From assembly GCF_001880325.1 (NCBI RefSeq), contig NZ_CP016313.1, positions 248,001 through 312,000 of the forward strand: a stretch of DNA of 64,000 nt, read 5' to 3'. Made by a program: the position numbers and the translations under genes. The notes beneath the pieces were generated by a model. The model did no database searches, had not been told where the DNA came from, and saw nothing but the letters and a program-made list of their open reading frames with translations. This stretch comes from Thermus brockianus. GTDB lineage: Bacteria > Deinococcota > Deinococci > Deinococcales > Thermaceae. Below, piece after piece: positions 17,773-51,809 of the stretch (position 1 is the stretch's first letter; every line of letters starts with the position of its first letter).

Positions 17773-17804
17773 CTGATGGTCCTCTGACAGACCTCCTTTA
17801 CTCT
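17773..17804 (+). promoter_or_regulatory. Pho-box-like promoter of the 17823 ABC operon
   Basis: Direct repeats CTGATG (17773-17778) and CTGACA (17784-17789) start 11 bp apart; exactly 9 nt later comes TACTCT (17799-17804), a TANNNT -10 box. There is no separate -35 box. Transcription should start near 17811; AGGAGGTGA precedes ATG 17823. The same layout recurs at 29392-29423, 29519-29550 and 32550-32581. Confidence 0.65.
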
Positions 17805-17822: not shown

Positions 17823-19094
17823 ATGAAGGCCTTCCTAGGGTTTTGGGTAGCGGCGGGCCTGGCCTTGGCCCAAGCCCCCATCACCCTTCAGTACTGGCAC
17901 ATCAATACCGAAGCTTTCGGCCTCCCAGCTGTAAAGGAGCTTATCCGGGAGTTTGAACGGCAAAACCCTGGGATCAAGGTGGAGGAGCGCTACCAGCCCA
18001 ACGCCTATACTGGCCTTCTACAAAACCTACAGGCGGCCTTGGCAGCAGGCACCCCTCCTGACGTGGTGCAGATGGGTTACCTCTACACGCGTTATGCCGC
18101 TAAGAATCTCCCCTACGTGCCCATAGAACAGCTGGCTAAGCGCTTTGGCGGCGAACGACATCTCCGCCGCTTCGCCCCCAACATTCTGGCCCTGGGCCAG
18201 GTGGACGGGGTCCTGGTGGGGATGCCTTACTCCCTCTCCAACATTGTTACCTACTACAACGCCGATCTCTTCCGCCGCGCTGGTCTGGACCCTGATCGTC
18301 CCCCTGCCACCTGGGAAGGCTGGAGGCGGGCCGCCCGGCAAATCAAGGAGCGCACAGGCAAGTATGGCGTATACCTGATCCTCCTGGATGACAACTGGGC
18401 AGTGGAGGCCCTTATCCGCTCCAATGGGGGAACCCTCCTACGCTGTGAAGACGGGTTCTTACGTGCAGGCGTAGACACTAAGGAGGCTGCCGAAGCTCTA
18501 GGGATGTGGGCAGGTTTGGTCCGTGAAGGGCTCGCCCTAGGGGTCATCCTCCAACAGGGGGAACAGGCCTTTCTGGCAGGGGAGGTTGCCAGTTTTATGA
18601 CCACCATTGCACGCCGGGCTGGACTCCAAGAACAAACCCGCGGTCGGTTTGAGCTTCGGGCTACCCGCTTCCCCACCTTTGGGGGCAAGCCCCCGGCCCT
18701 GCCCGCTGGGGGGAACGCGCTCATGGTCTTCAGCAAAGATCCCAAACGACAGGAAGCCGCCTGGAAGTTTATCCAGTTTCTCACTAGCCCTGACGGGTTC
18801 ACCATCTGGACCAAGGGGACGGGATACGTCCCCCTCCTCCCCGAGCTCAGCCGTGACCCTCGGTACCTGAAGGAGTTCGTGGAGAAGAACCCCATCCAAA
18901 GGGTGGCTATCGAGCAACTCCCCTTTACCGTGCCTTGGACTAGCTTCCCTGGTCCCAATGGCCTCGCCGCTAGCCAAGCCCTTTTCCGAGCAGTACAGAA
19001 GGCCTTGGCAGGCCAGGCTACCCCTGAGGCGGCCCTCAAAGAGGCATCTGTAGAGATCAACCGCCTCATTGGGAGGGAGCGGTGCAGCGAGTAG
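17823..19094 (+). CDS. ABC importer, family 1 extracellular solute-binding protein
   Basis: 423 residues with a cleavable signal peptide (MKAFLGFWVAAGLALAQAP) and mature start ITLQYWHINTE. The INTEAFGLPAVKELIREFERQNPGIKVE segment and later GEVASFMT, NALMVFSKDPKRQEAAWKFIQFL are typical of family 1 (MalE/UgpB-type) binding proteins, which capture sugars, glycerol phosphates or similar ligands. It lacks the lipobox Cys, so it is free in the periplasm. The ligand is unknown; the Pho-box-like promoter and the coupled metallophosphoesterase favour a phosphorylated compound over a plain sugar (inference). Overlaps the permease gene by 13 bp. Confidence 0.9.
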   Translation: MKAFLGFWVAAGLALAQAPITLQYWHINTEAFGLPAVKELIREFERQNPGIKVEERYQPNAYTGLLQNLQAALAAGTPPDVVQMGYLYTRYAAKNLPYVPIEQLAKRFGGERHLRRFAPNILALGQVDGVLVGMPYSLSNIVTYYNADLFRRAGLDPDRPPATWEGWRRAARQIKERTGKYGVYLILLDDNWAVEALIRSNGGTLLRCEDGFLRAGVDTKEAAEALGMWAGLVREGLALGVILQQGEQAFLAGEVASFMTTIARRAGLQEQTRGRFELRATRFPTFGGKPPALPAGGNALMVFSKDPKRQEAAWKFIQFLTSPDGFTIWTKGTGYVPLLPELSRDPRYLKEFVEKNPIQRVAIEQLPFTVPWTSFPGPNGLAASQALFRAVQKALAGQATPEAALKEASVEINRLIGRERCSE

Positions 19095-21720: not shown

Positions 21721-22605
21721 TTGGCTTGCCGGGCCACCACGCCCGCGGGATTGATGGGTAGCCACCCGCCCCGGCCTCCCCGCCGCACCGTATCCCGGTC
21801 CTCCACGACCGCATCCACATGCACGGCACACGGGGTCGGGTGGCCACCTCCCTCACTCTACGCCCCCGCCCGGGTCGCCCTGGTCAACCCCTACCACCTG
21901 GCCGCCTTCCGCAGGGCGATGGGGGAGCGGAACAAGACCGACCGCCAAGACGCCTCCCTCCTGGCCCGCTACGCCCTGGTGTACCGGGAGGAACTCCGGG
22001 CCTACACCCCTCCCCCCCAGGCACTCCAGGAGCTCAAGGCCCTGGTGGGGTACCAGGAAGACCTGGCCCGGCGAGAACGGGCCATCCTGAACCAGCTGGA
22101 AGCGGCGGCGTGGGCAGGGAGCGAGGGGGTTTTGCCTCTCCTCGGCAGGGAGCTAGCCCTGGTGCGGGAGCTCCTTGAGGAGGTGGACCAGAGAATCCAA
22201 GCCCTCCTGGAGGCCCTCCCTGAGTCCCGGGTCCTCATGACCCTTCCCGGGGTGGGCCCCCAGGTGGCGGCGGCGGTGTTGGCCTTCCTGCCCTCCCACC
22301 TCTGGGGCCGGGCCAAGGCCGCGGCTTCCTACGCCGGCCTCATCCCGGAACGGGAGGTTTCGGGGAAGAGCGTGGAGCGGAGCCGGCTTTCCAAGAAGGG
22401 GCCTCCCCTTTTGCGGAAGCGGCTTTACATGGGGGCTTTGGTAGCGGTGCGGCACGACCCGGAGATGCGGGCTTTGTACCACCGGCTGCTTTCCCGAGGC
22501 AAGCGGAAAAAGCAGGCCCTTTTGGCAGCGGCCCACAAGCTCCTTCGGCGGATGATGGGACGGCTTAGGGCCTACTACGCCGGTCAGGTAGACCGGGTGG
22601 CTTGA
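21721..22605 (+). mobile_element. IS110-family transposase, 5' end decayed
   Basis: From about residue 45 the protein is clearly an IS110 transposase: ARVALVNPYHLAAFRRA with KTDRQDASLLARYA (end of the DEDD nuclease domain), a coiled middle, then the transposase_20 core LMTLPGVGPQVAAAVLAFLP, AAASYAGLIPEREVSGKS and RKRLYMGALVAVRHDP with the conserved serine region. The first 45 residues are low-complexity and lack the DxG-type start with the first catalytic Asp of the RuvC-like domain; roughly 60-70 family residues are missing or scrambled. The copy is therefore probably inactive. Its last 41 bp overlap the stop-proximal part of the opposing cobW gene. Confidence 0.8.
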
Positions 22606-27864: not shown

Positions 27865-29370
27865 CTAGGCCCAGACGTCCTCCGGGTGGCGCACGGCCTG
27901 GGGACGCGTCTTGAGGATTTCCAAGGCTTCTTCTTCGCTCATCACGGGGTTCTGGTAGCGGATCCCCAAGGCCTCCCCCATGAGGCGGAAGACGTGGGTG
28001 TTGTCCACAAGGCCCAGGCTCACCAGGCGGAGGCCCTGGCCGTAAAGGGTAAGAACCACGGGGCTCGCCGTGTGCTGGCCCGAGCTGTAGCCGATGTTGG
28101 GCCGGTCGGGCTTGCTGGCGTTCCGTTGCACCATGGCCCAGGCCATGGTGTTGTCCGGCTGTACCCCTTGGCGCACGCCCTCGGGCCAGTAGATCCGCTC
28201 CCGGATGGCCCGCACCACCCGCTCCGCCTCCTCATCGGTGAGGACCACGCCCTTCATGGTCCGGTAGGCCTCCTTCACCTGGGCGGCGTCGGGGCTATTC
28301 CCCAAAAGGCGGCGCATGTGCTCAAAGCTCGCCTTCTGGGCCTCGAGGAGGTCAATCCCGGCGGAGCTCTCCAGGTAGCTCCGGCCCGCCCCATAAAGTC
28401 CCCCGACCCCGGTGGCGTGGTCGGACGCCAGGAGGAGAAGGGTGTCGGGGTTGCGGTCCACGAAGGCGGTGAGGAGTTCTAGGGTCTCGTCGGCGGCCAG
28501 GACGTCCCAAAGGGTGGCGGCGGGGTCGTTGAGGTGGTTGGCGTGGTCAATCCGGCCCGCCTCCACCTGGAGCACGAAGCCGTTGCGGTAGGAGGCTAGC
28601 CGGGGCAAAGCAGCCTGCACCATCTCCTTGAGGCTCGGCACCCTCACCCCCTGGAAGCGGCGGTCCACCTCGTAGGGGACGTGGCTGTCGGAAAAGACCC
28701 CAAGGAGCTTGCTGGCGTTGCTGCGGGCAAGCTCCTCGGGGGTACGCACCACCCCGTAGCCCGCCTGGGCAAAGGCGGCGTAGAGGTCCTTCTTGTCCTG
28801 GCGCCTTTCCGGGTTGAAGAACCGGTCCCCCCCGCCCAGGTAAACCTCAGCCCCGAACTCCAGGTACTGCTCAGCGATCCGCTCCTCCGCGTTGCGGTCG
28901 GGATTGGAGATCACAAACCCCGCGGGCGTGGCGTGGGTGATGGTGGTGGTGGTGAGGAGGCCCACCGCCTTTCCCACCTCCTTGGCGGCGGCGAAGAAGG
29001 GCTTCAGGGGGGTACCATCGGCGTGGATGGCGAGGCCCCCGTTCACAGTCTTCACGCCGCAGGACATGGCGTTGGCCGCGGCGCTGGACTCGGTGACGTA
29101 GCTCGTGAGGCTGTAGGTGTTCACCTGGCCGCTAGGGTAGCGGGCAAGAAGCCTCTCCAAGGCGAGAACCCGCCCCTGGCGCCGCCTGGCGTAGGCCTGG
29201 GCCACGGCGTAGTCCTCCCAGGAAAACCCGTCGTAGACGAAGACGATGAGGTTCCGGTACCGCCGCCCTAGGGAGGGGGTGTTCTGAGGGGCGCCTTGGG
29301 CTACCCCCTTGGGCAGGAAGGCAAGGGCGCCGGCAACGAGGCCGCCTTTCAACAGTTCACGGCGTTTCAC
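27865..29370 (-). CDS. phoA: Alkaline phosphatase, Tat-exported
   Basis: 501 residues from GTG 29370 (GGAGGTGG upstream), the same length as reported for Thermus alkaline phosphatases. The N-terminus KRRELLKGGLVAGALAFLP is a twin-arginine signal. Active-site features: first metal Asp in VFVYDGF, nucleophilic Ser region SYVTESSAAANAMSCG, HATPAGF, EAGRIDHANHLND (metal ligands), LLASDHATG and SSGQHTAS. It hydrolyses phosphomonoesters outside the cytoplasm. Divergent from an Ugp-like importer and preceded by a Pho-box-like element, so it should be induced by phosphate starvation. Confidence 0.94.
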   Translation of the reverse strand: MKRRELLKGGLVAGALAFLPKGVAQGAPQNTPSLGRRYRNLIVFVYDGFSWEDYAVAQAYARRRQGRVLALERLLARYPSGQVNTYSLTSYVTESSAAANAMSCGVKTVNGGLAIHADGTPLKPFFAAAKEVGKAVGLLTTTTITHATPAGFVISNPDRNAEERIAEQYLEFGAEVYLGGGDRFFNPERRQDKKDLYAAFAQAGYGVVRTPEELARSNASKLLGVFSDSHVPYEVDRRFQGVRVPSLKEMVQAALPRLASYRNGFVLQVEAGRIDHANHLNDPAATLWDVLAADETLELLTAFVDRNPDTLLLLASDHATGVGGLYGAGRSYLESSAGIDLLEAQKASFEHMRRLLGNSPDAAQVKEAYRTMKGVVLTDEEAERVVRAIRERIYWPEGVRQGVQPDNTMAWAMVQRNASKPDRPNIGYSSGQHTASPVVLTLYGQGLRLVSLGLVDNTHVFRLMGEALGIRYQNPVMSEEEALEILKTRPQAVRHPEDVWA

Positions 29371-29391: not shown

Positions 29392-29423
29392 AGGGTAAGC
29401 CGGTTTTTTCAGGAGAACGTCAT
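29392..29423 (-). promoter_or_regulatory. Pho-box-like promoter of phoA
   Basis: Minus strand: ATGACG (29418-29423) and CTGAAA (29407-29412) start 11 bp apart; 9 nt then TACCCT (29392-29397). Transcription should begin near 29385, leaving a leader with GGAGGTGG before GTG 29370. The repeats are the least conserved of the four copies but spacing is identical. Confidence 0.6.
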
Positions 29424-29518
29424 GCCTAGCCCAAAGATGGCTCTTCCAAGGCCTGCTTCCGGCCCTTGGCCACCCCCGCGAGGACGGAGGGGGATTCCTT
29501 GGGCGAGCCCAGGCTAAG

Positions 29519-29550
29519 CTGACCTTTCCTTGACACGATGGGCCTAAACT
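29519..29550 (+). promoter_or_regulatory. Pho-box-like promoter of the Ugp-like operon
   Basis: CTGACC (29519-29524) and TTGACA (29530-29535) start 11 bp apart; 9 nt then TAAACT (29545-29550). Predicted transcription start near 29557, only about four bases before ATG 29561, so the mRNA is nearly leaderless. TTGACA here is not at a sigma-A -35 distance, which supports an activator-replaced -35. Confidence 0.68.
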
Positions 29551-29560
29551 ACCCCGCAGA

Positions 29561-30370
29561 ATGAAGGGTCCATGGGTCTTCCTCCTACTCCTTCCCACCC
29601 TAGCCTTTCTGGTGGTCTTCACCTACCTCCCCTTGGCAGTGGCGGCCAAGGAAGGGATCCCCGCCCTTCCCCAGCTACTCTCCCCGGAGAACCTAAACGC
29701 TCTCCGGGTTACTGCCCTTTACACGCTCCTCACAGCCCCCCTGTCCGTGGCCTTGGGCCTTCTTGCGGCGGTAGCGGTAGAAGGCCACGGCCGGTTGAGG
29801 TTACTCGCCCGCCTACTCATCTTTCACCCCGTCATCCTACCCACAGTGGGCTTTGCCGCCGTCTTCCTCTACCTGCTCAATCCCCTGGGCCCACTCCGCA
29901 ACGTCCTCCAGGCGGCGGGGTTCCCAAACCCCCTAGGGGAACCCCTTAGCGCCTTCCTGAGCGTGGTCCTCGTGGGTGTCCTGAAGGATGCGGGTTTTTA
30001 CATGCTCTACTACTTGGCTGGGCTCCAATCCATTCCCAAGGAACTCATCGAAGCTGCGCGGGTAGACGGCGCTGGCCGGATCGTCACTTTCCTGCGGGTC
30101 TCCCTGCCCCTCCTTTCCCCCACCACCTTCTTCGTGGGGGTAATGGCCGTGCTGGGGGCTTTGCGGAACGTGGACCACATCTTCGTGCTCACCAAAGGAG
30201 GTCCCCTGGGCGCCACGGACCACCTCCTCTACCGGATCTACATCCTGGGCTTTGAGTACTTTGACTTTTCCCAAGCGGCAGCCTTGAGCCTCGTCCTGTT
30301 TACCGCTCTCACCCTCCTTGCCCTCACCGCCCTGCCCCGCTTGGAAAGGGGAGTGTACTATGACGCTTAG
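29561..30370 (+). CDS. ABC importer permease, UgpA-like
   Basis: 269 residues, six predicted helices, beginning GPWVFLLLLPTLAFLVVFTYLPLAVA. The EAA loop is KELIEAARVDGAGRIVTFLRVSLPLLSP. Late TKGGPLGATDHLLYRIY is typical of sugar/glycerol-3-phosphate permeases of family 1. Placed between phoA and a glycerol facilitator, and under a Pho-box-like promoter, the best guess is glycerol-3-phosphate or glycerophosphodiester uptake. Overlaps the next permease gene by 11 bp. Unlike typical ugpA (about 295 residues) it is short at the N-terminus. Confidence 0.88.
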   Translation: MKGPWVFLLLLPTLAFLVVFTYLPLAVAAKEGIPALPQLLSPENLNALRVTALYTLLTAPLSVALGLLAAVAVEGHGRLRLLARLLIFHPVILPTVGFAAVFLYLLNPLGPLRNVLQAAGFPNPLGEPLSAFLSVVLVGVLKDAGFYMLYYLAGLQSIPKELIEAARVDGAGRIVTFLRVSLPLLSPTTFFVGVMAVLGALRNVDHIFVLTKGGPLGATDHLLYRIYILGFEYFDFSQAAALSLVLFTALTLLALTALPRLERGVYYDA

Positions 30371-31217
30371 CTCCGAACGCCCCAAGCCCCTGCTTCGTCG
30401 CATAGGACGGGTCTCGTGGAGGGGTGCGCGCCAACTGCCCGCCCTCCTTTTCGCCCTGCCCTACGCCTTCATCGTGGGGTACAGCCTCGTGGCCGCCATT
30501 ACCCCTACGGCGGATCTCCATCGGGGTGAGATCGGCAGGTTCACCTTGGAAAACTTCGCCCTCGCCTGGAGCTCCGCCGACTTTCCCCGCCTCTACCTCA
30601 ACACTCTGATCTTCACCCTGGGCCTTCTCCTGGTGCAGGTTTTCACAGTGACCATGGCTGGCTTTGCCCTTGCCCACCTGAAGGGGCAGGGGAAAGACGC
30701 CCTCTTCTACCTGATCCTCTTCCAGCTTTTCCTCCCAGCCTCCGCCCTTATCCTGCCCAACTACATCCTCGTAGAGAGGATGGGCCTAGCCGACACCCTG
30801 ACCGCCCTAGCCCTACCCTACGTCGCCTCGGCCACGGGGGCCTTTCTCTTGCGCCAAGGTTTCCTGCAGGTACCTAAGGAACTCGTGGAAGCCGCCTACG
30901 TGGACGGAGCCACGCCATGGCAGGTCCTATGGCGGGTACTCTTGCCCTTAGTCCGTCCTCAGCTCGCCGCTTTCGCCCTGGTCAGCCTAGTCTATCATTG
31001 GAACGAGTTTCTTTGGCCCCTGGTGATCATCCAAAGCCCCGAAAAGCGCGTGCTCTCCCTGGGTTTTGCCAGCTTTGCCCGCTCTGCCGAGAGCGGGATG
31101 GAGTGGGGCCTCATCGCCGCCGGGGCCCTGCTGGTGGCCCTACCCATGGTTGTGGTCTTCCTGCTCTTCCAGCGGAGCTTCATGGAAGCCTTTGCCCGAA
31201 GTGGCCTAAAGGGGTAA
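30360..31217 (+). CDS. ABC importer permease, UgpE-like
   Basis: 285 residues; ATG 30360 overlaps the upstream gene. Six predicted helices starting at LPALLFALPYAFIVGYSLVAAITP; EAA loop KELVEAAYVDGATPWQVLWRVLLPLVRP; YHWNEFLWPLVII is a conserved family segment. It pairs with the preceding permease. No ATPase (ugpC) gene follows; a shared ATPase elsewhere is required. Confidence 0.9.
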   Translation: MTLSSERPKPLLRRIGRVSWRGARQLPALLFALPYAFIVGYSLVAAITPTADLHRGEIGRFTLENFALAWSSADFPRLYLNTLIFTLGLLLVQVFTVTMAGFALAHLKGQGKDALFYLILFQLFLPASALILPNYILVERMGLADTLTALALPYVASATGAFLLRQGFLQVPKELVEAAYVDGATPWQVLWRVLLPLVRPQLAAFALVSLVYHWNEFLWPLVIIQSPEKRVLSLGFASFARSAESGMEWGLIAAGALLVALPMVVVFLLFQRSFMEAFARSGLKG

Positions 31218-31232: not shown

Positions 31233-32513
31233 ATGAGGACAGGCAGGATCGTTGGCTTGTGGGTTCTCTTGGGAATAGGTTTGGCCCAGAGCACCACCAT
31301 CACCTTTTACTACCCGGTGGGGGTCGCGGGCCCCCTAGCCCGCTTCATTGAGGGCTACGTGCAAGAGTTTGAAGCCAAGAACCCGGACATCAAGGTGAAC
31401 ACGGTTTTTGGTGGGAACTACGAGGAAAACCAGGCCAAGGTGGTGGCCGCCATAAGGGCGGGGAACCCACCGGATACGGCCATCCTGCTTTCCCAGCAGC
31501 TCTATACCCTTTTGGCCATGGATGCCATAGAGCCCTTTGATGCCTATATAGCCAAGGACCCCGAGCTCAAGCGAGCGGTAAACGACTTTTTCCCTGCCTT
31601 CATGATGAACTCAACCCTGGACGGAAAGGTCTACAGCCTACCCTTCCAACGCTCCACACCCATCCTCTACTACAACAAGGAGGCCTTCCAAGAGGCAGGT
31701 TTGGATCCGGAAAGGCCCCCTGCCTCGTGGGACGAGCTGGTAGAGTATGCCAAGCGCCTTACCAAACGGGACGCGCAGGGGCGCATCGTGCGCTACGGAG
31801 TGGCCATCCCCACGGAGAACCGCTCCACGTGGCTTCTGGAGGCCCTCACCATCCAAGCGGGGGGTCTGCTCTATGACCCCGCGGGGAAGGGATGCAAGGT
31901 CCTGGTGGACACGGAGCCCGTACGAAAAGGAATGCAGTTCAAGGCCGACCTCGCCCGTAGGTACGGGGTGAGCCCCGAAGGGTTGGTGGCCTGGGGCACC
32001 ACGCCGGGGGACTTCACCGCCGGTAAAGTTGCCATGATCTACCACTCCACGGGCTCCTTGGGCTTTGTCCGGGCCAACGCCCGCTTCCCCTTCGGCACGG
32101 CCTTCCTGCCCAAACAGGTGCGGTATGGGGTCCCCACGGGCGGGGCTAACTTCTACCTCTTCAAAGGGTCTGACCCCAAGAAGCGGGAGGCCACCCTCCG
32201 CTTCATCAAGTTCATGACAAGCCCCGAGCTCCAAGCGCGGTGGGCCCTGGACTCGGGGTATGTGGCCGCCCGCCGCTCCAGTTGGAGCCTCCCCATCATG
32301 CAGAAGTACCTCCAAGAGTGGCCCCAACCCAAGACGGCTCGCGAGCAGCTGGCCTACGCCCGGGCTGAACTCCCCGTCTACAACCTTCAACAGGTCAAGG
32401 ACATCATTGCGGAGGCGGAGCAAGCGGTGGTCCTGGGCCGCAAGGACGTGCGGGAGACCACGAGGGAGGCCCAGAAGCGGGTGGACGAGGCCTTGAAGCC
32501 TTTCTGCCGTTGA
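31233..32513 (+). CDS. ABC importer solute-binding protein, UgpB-like
   Basis: 426 residues; signal peptide RIVGLWVLLGIGLAQS, mature start TTITFYYPVGVAGPLARFIEGYVQEFEAKNPDIKV, typical of UgpB-type proteins. PFQRSTPILYYNKEAFQEAGLDPERPPASWDEL is the classic hinge segment of family 1 binding proteins. FYYPVGVAGPL replaces the FWHAM opening of true UgpB, so ligand preference may differ. Periplasmic, no lipobox. Last gene of the three-gene importer; the sequence between it and the next gene carries a separate Pho-box-like promoter. Confidence 0.88.
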   Translation: MRTGRIVGLWVLLGIGLAQSTTITFYYPVGVAGPLARFIEGYVQEFEAKNPDIKVNTVFGGNYEENQAKVVAAIRAGNPPDTAILLSQQLYTLLAMDAIEPFDAYIAKDPELKRAVNDFFPAFMMNSTLDGKVYSLPFQRSTPILYYNKEAFQEAGLDPERPPASWDELVEYAKRLTKRDAQGRIVRYGVAIPTENRSTWLLEALTIQAGGLLYDPAGKGCKVLVDTEPVRKGMQFKADLARRYGVSPEGLVAWGTTPGDFTAGKVAMIYHSTGSLGFVRANARFPFGTAFLPKQVRYGVPTGGANFYLFKGSDPKKREATLRFIKFMTSPELQARWALDSGYVAARRSSWSLPIMQKYLQEWPQPKTAREQLAYARAELPVYNLQQVKDIIAEAEQAVVLGRKDVRETTREAQKRVDEALKPFCR

Positions 32514-32549: not shown

Positions 32550-32581
32550 CTGACCTTTTCCTGACAGGGAAGGCTTAGGTT
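32550..32581 (+). promoter_or_regulatory. Pho-box-like promoter of the FbpA/AfuA-like operon
   Basis: CTGACC (32550-32555) and CTGACA (32561-32566) start 11 bp apart; 9 nt then TAGGTT (32576-32581). Transcription should start around 32588, at the ATG (32589) of the next gene, giving a leaderless mRNA. This decides the start against the in-frame TTG at 32580. Confidence 0.68.
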
Positions 32582-32588
32582 GGAAGGC

Positions 32589-33530
32589 ATGCGGAGGATA
32601 CCCCTGCTCGCCCTCTTTGCCCTCCTCGGAGGGGCCTGGGCTCAAAGCATTACCCTCTACACCTCGGAAATCCTTGCGGACGTCAACGCCCTGGTGGAAG
32701 CCTTTCAGGCCCAAAACCCAGGGGTGCAGGTGCGCGTTTTCCGCTCAGGCACCGGCGAAGTGGTGGCCAAGGTGAGGACCGAACTGGAGGCGGGCAACCC
32801 CCAAGCGGACATCCTCTGGTTTGCCAACGAGGACTTCCTCAAGGAGTTGGCGGGGAAGGGGTTACTCCGCCGAGTACCTCCCACAGTCCCCGGGTACCCG
32901 GTGGAGTACGCCCCCGGGGGCGGGCTCTACTACGAGGTGCGCCTGCTCTACAACGTGCTTGCGGTGAACCTTGAGCGCCTGCCCACCCCTCCCAAGAGCT
33001 GGCAGGACCTCCTCCAACCCGCCTACCGGGGCCTAATGGCCATGCCTGACCCCAACTTCTCGGGCGCCGCCTTGGCCACGGTGGGGACCCTTGCCTCCCG
33101 TTTTGGGCTGGCCTTTTGGGAAAGGATGCGGGAACAAGGCCTGCGCATAGAGCAGTCCAACCCCGTCCTCCAGCAAAAGCTCGCCCGGGGAGAATATTCG
33201 CTTGCCCTCACCACGGACTTTGGGGTACGGCAGGAAGCGGCCAAGGGAGCCCCCCTGGTCACCGTCTACCCGCGGGACGGGGCTATCCTGGTGCCCACGC
33301 CCCTGGCCATCCCCACGTGGAGCCGCAACCCACAGCTCGCCGAACGCTTCCTACGCTTCCTCCTTTCACCCAAGGCCCAGACCATCTTCGCCGAGAGGGG
33401 CTACTATCCGGTCATGCCCCAAGCCCCTAAGCCGAAGGGTGCCCCGGAGAAGGTTGTGGCCGTTCGGGCCCGGTTCGCGGACCAGGAAACCCTGGGGAGG
33501 TTCAACGCCCTCTTCGGCCTAAGGAGATGA
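32589..33530 (+). CDS. ABC importer solute-binding protein, FbpA/AfuA-like (copy 1)
   Basis: 313 residues from ATG 32589; signal peptide RRIPLLALFALLGGAWAQ; mature start SITLYTSEILADVNALVEAFQAQNPGVQVRVFRSGTGEVVAKV, the iron(III)/sugar-phosphate/phosphonate binding-protein pattern. It lacks the adjacent tyrosine pair arrangement typical of Fe3+-binding FbpA as far as I can see (a GLYYEVRLLYN stretch is present instead). In view of the Pho-box-like promoter and neighbours, an organophosphate ligand (AfuA-type sugar phosphate or PhnS-type phosphonate) is more likely than iron; this is inference. ATGA coupling to a tandem paralogue. Confidence 0.82.
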   Translation: MRRIPLLALFALLGGAWAQSITLYTSEILADVNALVEAFQAQNPGVQVRVFRSGTGEVVAKVRTELEAGNPQADILWFANEDFLKELAGKGLLRRVPPTVPGYPVEYAPGGGLYYEVRLLYNVLAVNLERLPTPPKSWQDLLQPAYRGLMAMPDPNFSGAALATVGTLASRFGLAFWERMREQGLRIEQSNPVLQQKLARGEYSLALTTDFGVRQEAAKGAPLVTVYPRDGAILVPTPLAIPTWSRNPQLAERFLRFLLSPKAQTIFAERGYYPVMPQAPKPKGAPEKVVAVRARFADQETLGRFNALFGLRR

Positions 33531-34495
33531 AGGGTATGATCCGTGGTTTCCGCTTGCCTTTGGCCTTCCTGGCATTCCTTACCTTACCCCTAGCCTGGTG
33601 CCAGGATGCGGGAACGCTAACCCTCTACGTCTCCGGTGCCCAACTGCCCGATGTCCAGGCCATCGTCCGAGGTTTTAACCAAATCTATCCCCAGGTGGAG
33701 GTGCGGGTGTTTCGCTCGGGAGCAGGGGAAGTGGCGGCCAAAATCCGTGCTGAACTGGAAGCGGGCAATCCCCAACCGGACCTCATCTGGAGTGTTGGCA
33801 AAGGGCTTTTCCACGAACTCCGGCAAAGGGGCCTCCTGCGGCGCGTGGCCCCAACCTTCCCCTCCTTGCCCCCCCAGTACGTCTACGAGGGAGGTTACTA
33901 CTACGAGGTACGCCTCCTCCACATCATCATCGCCGTGAATCCCAAAAAGGTCCCCACACCCCCCACCACCTGGGCGGACCTTACCCGGCCGGCCTATAGG
34001 GACCTAGTGGTCATGGCGGATCCCCACTGGCCCGCCCCCGTGGCGTTAGGGCATCTCACGGAGCGCTACGGATTTCCCTTCTGGCAAGGGCTCAAGGCGA
34101 ACGGCTTGGCCATAGAAGCCCCAAATCCCGTGCTTCAACAAAAGCTAGCCCGGGGTGAATACGGACTCGCCATCACAAACGATTACGGGGTCCAAAAGCT
34201 CCTGGCGGCGAGGGCTCCCCTAACCCTCGTATATCCCAAGGATGGAGCGGTTTACGCCCCTACCCCCGTGGGCATCCCCACGTGAAGCCCCAGACCAGAC
34301 TTGGCAGAAAAATTTCTCCGCTTCCTCCTCTCGGAAGGCGGCCAGCGGATCTTTTCCGAAAGGGGTTACTACCCCGTCATCCCCGGTTCTCCCGTTCCAA
34401 AAGGAAGCCCCCAACGCCTGGCCAGCATCCGCGGGCCAGAGGCTAGCCGGGAGGTTCTAGAGCGCTTCAATGCCCTTTTTGGCCTGCGGAGATGA
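33527..34495 (+). pseudogene. FbpA/AfuA-like binding protein (copy 2), interrupted by one in-frame TGA
   Basis: Tandem paralogue of the previous gene, same length class (322 codons) and same C-terminus ERFNALFGLRR. Reading is continuous from 33527 to 34495 except for TGA at 34283-34285, where copy 1 has TGG in the matching IPTWS context. After the stop the frame continues with DLAEKFLRFLLSEGGQRIFSERGYYPVIP, aligned to copy 1 without gaps. The lesion would remove about 70 residues including part of the C-lobe. The overlaps with both neighbours (ATGA each side) are preserved, so the event is recent or an error. Recoding is unlikely, because neighbouring genes use TGA as an ordinary stop. Confidence 0.8.
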
Positions 34496-35949
34496 CCTTC
34501 CTCCGGCGTCTCTATCCCCTCATCCCCTTCGCCCTCGCCCTCCTCGGTACCTCGCCCTTACTCGCCCTCCTCCCCCGAGGCCTCCCCCATCTCCTTCCCC
34601 CCAAAGACCTAGACGTGGTAGTCCTTAGCCTGGGACTCGCCGCGTCTGGAACCCTCCTAGCCCTTGGTTTGGGTCTCGCGCTGGCCTACCTGGCCTTGAT
34701 GGGTGGCGTAAGCCGCCTCTGGGAAGGGGTGTTTCTCCTCTCCTATCTGGTCCCCCCGTTCGTCACCGGGATGGGCCTCCTCTTCACCCTTCAGGAGTTG
34801 GGACTAAAGGCGTATGGGGTGCCAGGCATCCTGCTCGCCTGGACGCTGCACTACGCGCCCTTGGCCTACCTCCTCCTCAAGCCCCAGGTCCAGGCCGCCC
34901 TACCCCTGCTGCAAGCGGCCAGGGTCCACGGGCTGAAGGGCTGGAAGCGCCTTTACGCCTTCCTACCTCCCCTCCTGCCCTCCCTCCTCGTGACGGGGGG
35001 CGCGCTCTACCTGGCCCTTCTGGGTAACTTCGGCGTGCCGGCAGTCCTAGGCTTGCCCGAGCGGGTCTACACCCTCCCCACCCTGGCCTATGCCCGGCTG
35101 ACAAGCCCCTTGGCCCAGGACCCCATTGGGGAAGCCGCCGCCCTTGGGCTCTGGCTCGGGCTTCTGGCCCTCCCCGCCATCCTCCTTGCCCGCCCAGCCC
35201 TCCTAGAGGCCCACCCGGCCCTCCCCGAGGGGAGACGGGGGGGCTTCCGCCTCCTCTTCGCCACCTACAGCCTCTTTGCCCTCGGCCTTAGCCTCTTTGG
35301 CCTGCTGCGGGAAGCCCTCCTCAACCCCTACACCGGGGCTTGGGACCCCGCCTTTGCCCGCGCCTGGGAACTCCCCCTCGTCCGCCAGGGACTCCTCCAC
35401 TCCCTGCTCCTCGCCCTGTTGACCACGGGAGTCCTCCTCGCCCTTGCCCTTGTTGTCCGTCCCTTTCCCCACACCATGAGAAGCCTGCGGCAAAGCCTAG
35501 ACCTCGCCTACCTGCTTCCCGGCACCCTCCTCGGGATCGGGCTCATCCTCCTCCTGGCCCCCACACGCCTCTACGCCACCCCGGCCCTGCTCCTCCTCGC
35601 TTACCTTTGGAACTTCGCCAGCCTGGCCCTCCGGGCTGTGGAGGGCGGGGTAAAGGTGGAGGAGATGGTCCTCGCCGGGCGGGTGCACGGGCTCTCCCTA
35701 CCAAAGGCTTGGGCTCGGGTGGGCTACCCCCTCCTGCTCCCCTCCGCCTTCGCCGGGGCCTTCCTCATCTTTCCCCTGGCCGTCTCCGAAATCACGCTCT
35801 CCTCCCTCCTCTATGCCCCGGGGGCGGAAACGGTGGGGGTGGCGGTACTCTCCGCCCTTAACGGCGGGCTCTACCGGGAAGCGGCGAGCCTAGGCCTCCT
35901 CCTCCTTGCCCTCGCCGCTTTAGGTCTTCTGGGGAGGCCGAGATGGTGA
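34492..35949 (+). CDS. ABC importer permease, two-domain FbpB/AfuB type
   Basis: 485 residues with about twelve predicted helices in two homologous halves. EAA-like loops are visible as LLQAARVHGLKGWKRLYAFLPPLLP (about residue 140) and EEMVLAGRVHGLSLPKAWARVGYPLLLPS (about 395), which fits the fused permeases of the FbpABC/AfuABC/PhnSTUV group. Forms the channel for the two preceding binding proteins. ATG overlaps the copy 2 stop; the 3' end overlaps the ATPase gene by 7 bp. Confidence 0.9.
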   Translation: MTFLRRLYPLIPFALALLGTSPLLALLPRGLPHLLPPKDLDVVVLSLGLAASGTLLALGLGLALAYLALMGGVSRLWEGVFLLSYLVPPFVTGMGLLFTLQELGLKAYGVPGILLAWTLHYAPLAYLLLKPQVQAALPLLQAARVHGLKGWKRLYAFLPPLLPSLLVTGGALYLALLGNFGVPAVLGLPERVYTLPTLAYARLTSPLAQDPIGEAAALGLWLGLLALPAILLARPALLEAHPALPEGRRGGFRLLFATYSLFALGLSLFGLLREALLNPYTGAWDPAFARAWELPLVRQGLLHSLLLALLTTGVLLALALVVRPFPHTMRSLRQSLDLAYLLPGTLLGIGLILLLAPTRLYATPALLLLAYLWNFASLALRAVEGGVKVEEMVLAGRVHGLSLPKAWARVGYPLLLPSAFAGAFLIFPLAVSEITLSSLLYAPGAETVGVAVLSALNGGLYREAASLGLLLLALAALGLLGRPRW

Positions 35950-36871
35950 AGCTTGAGGGGGTGTACAAGCGCTTCCCCACGGGCGGGGGCGTGGAGGGAG
36001 TGGACCTCGAGGTGCGGGAAGGGGAGGTGTTCATACTCCTAGGGGCCTCGGGGAGCGGCAAGTCCACCCTCCTGAACTTGGCGGCGGGCCTCATCCCGCC
36101 GGACCGGGGACGCGTGTGGATTGGGGGAAGGGATGTGACCCGGCTGCCCCCAGAGGGGCGCCAACTGGCCTACGTGTTCCAGGACCAGGGGCTATGGCCC
36201 CACCTCACCGCCCTGGAACACCTCCTCCTGGTGATGCCCAAGCCAGATCCCAAGGAGGCCCTGGCCCTTCTTGAGCGGGTGGGCCTCTTGGAACACGCCC
36301 ACAAACGGCCCCACCAGCTCTCGGGGGACAGCGGCAACGGGTAGCCCTGGCCCGGGCCCTCGCCCGCAAGCCTCGGGTTATCCTCCTGGACGAGCCCTAC
36401 AGCGCCCTGGACCCGGTCCTTCGGGAGGGGCTACGCCTCGAGGTCCGCACCCTCCTCAAGGAGACGGGGATCACCGCCATCCACGTCACCCACGACCCGG
36501 AAGAGGCCATGCTCCTGGCTGACCGCGTAGGGGTGTTGGCCAGGGGCCGGCTCCTTCAGGTGGGCAGCCCCCAGGAGGTCTACCAGCACCCCAACTCCCT
36601 GGAGGCCTTCCTCGCCTTCGGACGGGCTAACCTCCTCACCACGGAAGGGGTGGTCCTCGCCTTCCGCCACGAATGGGTGCGCCCAGGTGGGGATTGGGAG
36701 GGTGTGGTGCTGGAACGCCGGGACCTGCGAGGGGAGGTCCTCTGCCGGGTGCGCCTGCCCGCGGGGGAGGCCTGGATCCGTTGGGAGGGAAACCCCGGGG
36801 AGCGGGTTAGGATGCGGATAGAACCCCTCCTGCGCTTCTCCCCCACAACCCCTCCCCACCCAGGGGGCTAG
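35943..36871 (+). pseudogene. ABC importer ATPase, frameshifted in the LSGGQ signature
   Basis: First frame: LLGASGSGKSTLLNLAAG (Walker A), YVFQDQGLWPHLTALEHL (Q-loop). Then at a run of five G (36323-36327) the frame breaks inside the signature: one more G would restore [33 protein letters not shown] (read across the join), giving signature, Walker B and D-loop, then HVTHDPEEAMLLADRV (H-loop) and a TOBE-like C-terminus to 36871. As written, translation stops at 36344 with 133 residues and no ATP hydrolysis possible. It is the only ATPase gene in the three importer operons of this window. Error, phase-variable tract or true inactivation cannot be told apart here. Confidence 0.85.
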
Positions 36872-48470: not shown

Positions 48471-48516
48471 CTTTCACCTGTCCTTTCACACCCTTTTCAC
48501 ATGGGGCCCTTACCCT
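48471..48516 (+). promoter_or_regulatory. Triple TTTCAC repeat promoter of the surface-protein cluster
   Basis: CTTTCAC at 48471-48477 and 48483-48489 and TTTTCAC at 48494-48500 (12- and 11-bp periods), then TACCCT at 48511-48516, about 10 nt after the last repeat. No -35 box. Expected start near 48523, ATG at 48534. The layout suggests a response-regulator-type activator different from the Pho-box binder. Confidence 0.5.
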
Positions 48517-48533: not shown

Positions 48534-49022
48534 ATGCGGCGACCCTGGTTCTGGCTCGGTTTCCTGGCCGTCCTAGTGGCCCTCGCCCAGGCGCTTAGCC
48601 TGGACCTGAGGCCCTACCTAGTACGGGTATTGGAAGGCAAGGAGGTCTACGAGGAAAACCCCGTGGCGGTGAAGCCCGGGGACGTGCTGGAGTGGCGCCT
48701 GGTGGCGGAAAACCGCTCCCAGGGTGCCTTGCGTCAGGTGGCCTTGGTGATCCCCGTCCCCAAGGAGACCCACTACCTGGACGGGAGCGCTAAGCCCCTG
48801 ACCCTAAGCGGGTCCACCATCCGCCCGGAGTTCAGCTTTGACGGGGGGAGGACCTACGGCTTCCCGCCCCTGAAGAAGCGGGTCCGGGTGGTGGAAAACG
48901 GCAAGGAGGTGGAAAAGGAGGCGGAAGTGAAGCCCGAAGAGTACACCCACGTGCGGTGGCTCGTTCCGGAGCTGCCTAAAGGCGCTAAAGTCCAGGTTTC
49001 CATGCGCACCGTGGTCAAGTAG
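48534..49022 (+). CDS. Small exported DUF11-like protein
   Basis: 162 residues. Signal peptide RRPWFWLGFLAVLVALAQA; mature part is one all-beta domain with VKPGDVLEWRLVAENRSQGALRQVALVIPVPKETHYLDGS, a DUF11-type pattern (AENxS/NxG, PVP). No membrane anchor at the C-terminus. Sits 14 bp before the large DUF11 protein gene and shares its transcript. Probably a periplasmic or surface component; function unknown. An in-frame upstream codon exists but homologous signal-peptide placement and a GGGGTGG before 48534 favour this start. Confidence 0.75.
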   Translation: MRRPWFWLGFLAVLVALAQALSLDLRPYLVRVLEGKEVYEENPVAVKPGDVLEWRLVAENRSQGALRQVALVIPVPKETHYLDGSAKPLTLSGSTIRPEFSFDGGRTYGFPPLKKRVRVVENGKEVEKEAEVKPEEYTHVRWLVPELPKGAKVQVSMRTVVK

Positions 49023-51766: not shown

Positions 51767-51783
51767 TTGACACGGTTTTGACC
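51767..51783 (+). promoter_or_regulatory. Weak fifth Pho-box-like direct repeat upstream of protein B
   Basis: TTGACA (51767-51772) and TTGACC (51778-51783) start 11 bp apart, as in the four Pho-box-like promoters, but the hexamer 9 nt downstream (AAAAGT, 51793-51798) is a poor -10 box. Some promoter is expected here because a strong terminator precedes it. Confidence 0.4.
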
Positions 51784-51809
51784 AGGAAAGGAAAAAGTGG
51801 GAAACGAAG

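Follow-up and report, generated by a model that had tools for sequence, protein, structure and literature searches.

Putative tandem Pho boxes at the divergent promoters of phoA and a ugp-like importer in Thermus

The two divergent promoters between the alkaline phosphatase gene phoA and a ugp-like importer operon of Thermus each contain a pair of TGAC-type half-sites, which we read with high confidence as Pho boxes, i.e., as tandem operators for the Thermus PhoB protein, one per promoter; binding of PhoB, activation and a response to phosphate are deduced here from sequence. The window, i.e., the whole stretch of 64 kb that was analysed (G000:C2:248001-312000), stems from a 2.39-Mb Thermus genome. 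The operator appears to belong to the known kind of Pho boxes, with a variant sequence that is new, and in the open literature searched we found neither a description of a Pho box in Thermus or Deinococcus nor a study of PhoB binding there.

Tandem sites in the window

At both promoters, two TGAC-type half-sites lie 11 bp apart and are followed after 9 nt by TANNNT, as the initial annotation had proposed and as the coordinates confirm (Table 1). The phoA gene begins with GTG at 29370, is preceded by a GGAGG ribosome-binding site and encodes a Tat-like N-terminus; its product does not reach the equivalog cut-off for E. coli PhoA. With two mismatches, which count against the reading as a Pho box, and CTGAAA as its second half-site, the phoA box of the window is among the weaker versions. 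On the opposite side, the ATG of the first importer permease (29561) is situated 10 nt past the -10 box. Because all parts of this importer score below the equivalog cut-offs, its substrate is only putative. Both boxes persist at the syntenic position in T. brockianus, where the sequence separating them has diverged and shows insertions and deletions.

The consensus first given, YTGACN-N5-YTGACA-N9-TANNNT, turned out to be nearly right: the gap to the -10 box can also be N10, the -10 box may begin with C, and variation is greatest at the base following the second TGAC (A, less often C or G), such that the refined form reads YTGACM-N5-YTGAC(A>C,G)-N9 or N10-(T/C)ANNNT.

Identical geometry had been claimed for four places, and a scoring matrix trained on 17 phoA promoters from other genomes, with the window excluded, indeed yielded exactly four strong sites in the 64 kb (starting at 17773, 29519 and 32550 on the plus strand and situated at 29392-29423 on the minus strand; 25.6 to 27.9 bits). 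The next scores were 19.1 and 15.9 bits, and the best score of the reversed window was 11.1 bits. That chance is an unlikely source of the pattern, as likewise stated at the outset, is borne out by genome-wide pattern searches controlled with the reversed pattern: with at most two mismatches, the first-noted pattern occurs at 16 sites in the whole genome and its reversal at one; with at most one mismatch, 163 sites are found in 27 Thermus genomes, again against a single reversed one. Furthermore, a match with at most two mismatches is present in the upstream 100 bp of all 18 phoA genes (17 orthologues and the gene of the window), regions that were picked via gene orthology and not via the pattern, versus 0.11% of dinucleotide shuffles.

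Concerning the spacing, a scan of TGAC-N{2,14}-TGACA-N9-TANNNT found the 11-bp period in 42 of 48 exact matches, and a scan of the distance to the -10 box over gaps of 3 to 17 nt found N9 in 36 and N10 in 30 of 78 cases. The upstream half-site is conserved as well as the second one. The spacing scan also returned a variant with N5, TGACAGTATTGACA, which in this genome is close to genes for tRNA-Phe and tRNA-Asp and was set aside as unrelated to the Pho sites; together with its -10 box (TGACAGTATTGACA-N9-TAAAGT; G000:C1:1156812-1156840, minus strand, L106), it is almost identical in four Thermus genomes.

Table 1. Predicted Pho boxes and associated genes. Positions are those of the window unless a contig (C1) or locus (L102) is given; mismatches refer to the first-noted pattern.
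Feature	Position	Strand	Remarks
Predicted Pho box and -10, CTGATG-N5-CTGACA-N9-TACTCT (fourth box)	17773-17804	+	27.9 bits
UgpB-like substrate-binding protein	17823-19094	+	
phoA, alkaline phosphatase	27865-29370	-	PF00245, 209.5 bits
Predicted Pho box and -10 of phoA, ATGACG-N5-CTGAAA-N9-TACCCT	29392-29423	-	27.8 bits with the other-genome matrix
Parts of the phoA box	ATGACG 29423-29418, N5, CTGAAA 29412-29407, N9, TACCCT 29397-29392	-	
Predicted Pho box and -10 of the importer, CTGACC-N5-TTGACA-N9-TAAACT	29519-29550	+	0 mismatches; 25.6 bits
Parts of the importer box	CTGACC 29519-29524, N5, TTGACA 29530-29535, N9, TAAACT 29545-29550	+	
Importer permease 1, UgpA-like	29561-30370	+	UgpA, 101 bits, below cut-off
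Importer permease 2, UgpE-like	30318-31217	+	UgpE, 143.6 bits, below cut-off
Importer substrate-binding protein, UgpB-like	31233-32513	+	UgpB, 167.5 bits, below cut-off
Predicted Pho box and -10, CTGACC-N5-CTGACA-N9-TAGGTT (third box)	32550-32581	+	0 mismatches; 27.2 bits
Substrate-binding protein related to 2-aminoethylphosphonate binding proteins	32589-33530	+	TIGR03261, 87.6 bits, below cut-off
Weak candidate box, TTCACA-N5-TTCACA-N9-TACCCT	48485-48516	+	19.1 bits
Weak candidate box, TTGACA-N5-TTGACC-N9-AAAAGT	51767-51798	+	15.9 bits; upstream of a second uncharacterised ORF
Predicted pstSCAB box	C1:1101671-1101702	-	directly upstream of pstS, the first gene
Predicted phoB-phoR-phoU box, TGACC-N6-TGACA-N10-TAGACT	C1:543286-543317		ends 6 nt before the phoB start
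phoB-phoR-phoU	L102:2825-5061		PhoR-type kinase gene and phoU adjoin phoB

Behind the third box, the ATG follows the -10 box after 7 nt. The phosphonate-type importer situated there looks damaged (window positions 33527-34285 and 35943-36871), its second binding protein being short (252 aa vs 313) and its ATPase being divided into two ORFs in different frames; this may reflect decay or an assembly error. Concerning the two weak candidates, the ORF downstream of the first (48534-49022) gave no family match, and the second may be due to chance. A further ORF of the window (21721-22605) resembles, as judged by eye, an IS110-type transposase.

Putative regulon

A genome-wide search for the pattern at pstS and at the genes of phoB, phoR and phoU had been suggested as a check. 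One box is found immediately upstream of pstSCAB; it overlaps the end of mnmA, so that its conservation is partly coding and was therefore left out as independent evidence. The phoB-phoR-phoU operon possesses a box as well, though with 10 instead of 9 nt to the -10 box, and in 22 of the 27 Thermus genomes this N10 box recurs before phoB, by coordinates about 1.6 kb ahead of phoU. Outside phoB, sites with the N10 gap are also found before genes of UgpB-like binding proteins.

For the reading of the regulon, 68 sites from nine genomes were considered, 66 of which have an ORF within 150 nt downstream; families were named by model matches or by similarity within clusters. The pattern is not equally common upstream of unrelated genes, which would have spoken against the proposal: about 50 of the 66 sites precede genes for the acquisition of phosphate or organophosphate. 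Most frequent are ugp-like permeases, SurE and PstS of two types (8 each), followed by phosphonate-type binding proteins (7), PhoA and the TIM-barrel protein of a ugp-surE operon (5 each), and UgpB-like proteins, phytase-like proteins, transporter ATPases and arsenate-reductase-like proteins (3 each). The remaining sites belong to short ORFs, receiver-domain proteins, pyruvate-kinase-like proteins and six singletons. A few genome-wide matches precede genes without an evident role in phosphate metabolism, which counts against the reading as Pho boxes.

One ugp-surE operon (L104, G000:C2:115500-127500) contains three predicted boxes on the minus strand (at 119508, 122633 and 123396), each of which directly precedes a start codon and overlaps in part with the end of the gene before it; pairs of sites at a similar spacing are present in other Thermus genomes as well. 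The arsenate-reductase-like gene (low-molecular-weight phosphatase) with such a box is found in several Thermus genomes (L105:1626-2117; relatives L127, L129 and L173) and suggests a link between arsenate defence and phosphate starvation. Pyruvate-kinase-like genes carry a box in two Thermus genomes (L137, L163).

At 41 of the 66 sites, a start codon is situated 5 to 10 nt past the -10 box. Leaderless mRNAs are therefore predicted for most targets, and most target mRNAs are probably of this type. Leaderless mRNA is common in this phylum, and TANNNT shortly ahead of the start codon is equally a feature of the leaderless-gene promoters described for Deinococcus-Thermus (PMC3160421), whereas the -10 box of the sites studied here is preceded by a predicted activator operator.

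Comparison with known boxes and alternative readings

The Pho boxes of E. coli (phoA, pstS, ugpB, phoB) consist of 11-bp direct repeats that replace the -35 box at a short fixed distance to the -10 box (PMC4415409, PMC10294691). The Thermus sites share with them the 11-bp period of the two direct repeats, the location in place of the -35 box at a constant short distance from the -10 box, and the target genes, with sites upstream of pst, phoA and phoB. There are, however, differences: the half-site is YTGAC with a TGAC core and not CTGTCAT, the targets are predicted to be mostly leaderless, and Thermus PhoB possesses Gln at positions 197 and 201. Since the sequence of the Pho box varies between species according to a review, the deviating core concerns the E. 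coli subtype and not the kind of operator. In E. coli phoA, as checked in genomes, the TGTCA block is separated from TATAGT by 11 nt, whereas the TGACA block of Thermus is followed by 9 or 10 nt; if TGAC is aligned to TCAY, the distance to the -10 box amounts to 10 nt in both. The box of Bacillus PhoP is of the TTAACA type. That of Streptomyces PhoP is GTTCACC, according to the review just mentioned. Both share the 11-bp direct repeats and a T-N-A-C core and are closer to the Thermus YTGACM than the E. coli form is, but their second core base is C or A, whereas it is G in Thermus. A few Thermus sites carry TTCAC, and the tolerated variants TTCAC and TGAT agree with the alignment to TCAY or to Streptomyces TTCAC.

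This alignment is preferred to the reading in which the half-site represents TGTCA of E. coli on the opposite strand, with PhoB reversed on the promoter and its preference unchanged. Indeed, TGTCA-N6-TGTCA read on the other strand gives exactly TGACA-N6-TGACA, and ATGACA occurs as the second half-site of several phoA boxes. Reversed E. coli boxes would, however, lead one to expect A or G before TGAC, where Thermus mostly has C or T, and the A after the second core is the position that varies most. Reading TGAC as TCAY retains exactly the 10 nt of E. coli phoA, and an unchanged preference would render the alteration of two base-contacting helix residues needless. Flanking bases and changed helix thus fit a reversed E. 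coli box less well, and we consider it unlikely.

Direct repeats are commonly bound by regulators of the OmpR type, and related genomes hold additional PhoB-like paralogues, such that another member of this family with a similar tandem site could respond to a cue other than phosphate. A well conserved box upstream of phoB-phoR-phoU itself and targets comprising pst, phoA, surE and ugp-like genes argue against such a regulator, which appears very unlikely. Hardly any weight remains for ordinary sigma-A promoters with TTGACA as -35 box and a second repeat by chance. The second half-site of the importer is a perfect TTGACA, the sigma-70 -35 consensus; yet the gap to the -10 box is 9 to 10 nt instead of 16 to 18, the upstream repeat at 11 bp is equally conserved, its period is prominent in the spacing scan, and the targets form a coherent phosphate regulon. 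A plain sigma-A promoter was rejected on account of the short gap and the upstream repeat.

The regulator and its occurrence beyond Thermus

Among response-regulator models, TIGR02154 fits the PhoB-type protein of Thermus best; the score of 202.5 bits falls short of the cut-off (296.2), a point against the reading as Pho boxes. In every Thermus PhoB read, the recognition helix is RTVDQH[IV]LQLR, compared to RTVDVHIRRLR in E. coli (checked against PDB chains), i.e., Gln occupies the equivalents of Val197 and Arg201, and Thr194 is kept. In the E. coli PhoB-DNA complex, Arg201 bonds a guanine, whereas Thr194 and Val197 touch thymines (PMC3973317). The two Gln would hence be changed specificity residues, compatible with PhoB orthology, and may explain why the half-sites have TGAC rather than TGTCA, a link that we infer from the two sequences. 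The PhoR-type kinase (L102:3493-4383, G000:C1) comprises only 296 aa, with a PAS-like N-terminal region and no membrane segment evident on reading; phosphate sensing may thus be cytoplasmic, through PhoU.

According to the preferred reading as Pho boxes, two head-to-tail PhoB effector domains would bind the TGAC cores one DNA turn apart in the usual -35 position and would bring the housekeeping sigma factor to a -10 box consisting of TANNNT only. Under phosphate shortage, PhoB would be phosphorylated by the PhoR kinase, which is encoded together with phoU right behind phoB, and would then activate its own operon as well as phoA, pstSCAB, surE and the importers of the ugp-like and phosphonate-like types; most of these targets would be transcribed as leaderless mRNAs.

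Beyond Thermus, all 16 Meiothermus examined have the pair of Gln residues and, before phoB, a TGAC repeat. In a more distant family, the pair recurs in most members, and the repeat (at most two mismatches) is present in 17 of 25; the gap at phoB is usually N10 in this family and in Meiothermus. A genome of another family of the order (G036) has boxes before phoB and before a pstS. It is conceivable, though we lean slightly against it, that this represents an order-wide second PhoB code in which Gln 197/201 reads TGAC tandems and the gap longer by one base is kept specifically at the phoB operon; in its most radical form, repeats of the E. coli type would be bound in reverse and still activate.

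For Thermus and its relatives, the predicted sites would define a phosphate regulon whose motif is sharp enough for genome annotation. The natural swap of specificity (Val/Arg to Gln/Gln versus TCAY to TGAC) would make the DNA code of the OmpR/PhoB family directly testable, and the compact, probably inducible and mostly leaderless promoters might serve as low-phosphate switches for work with thermophiles.
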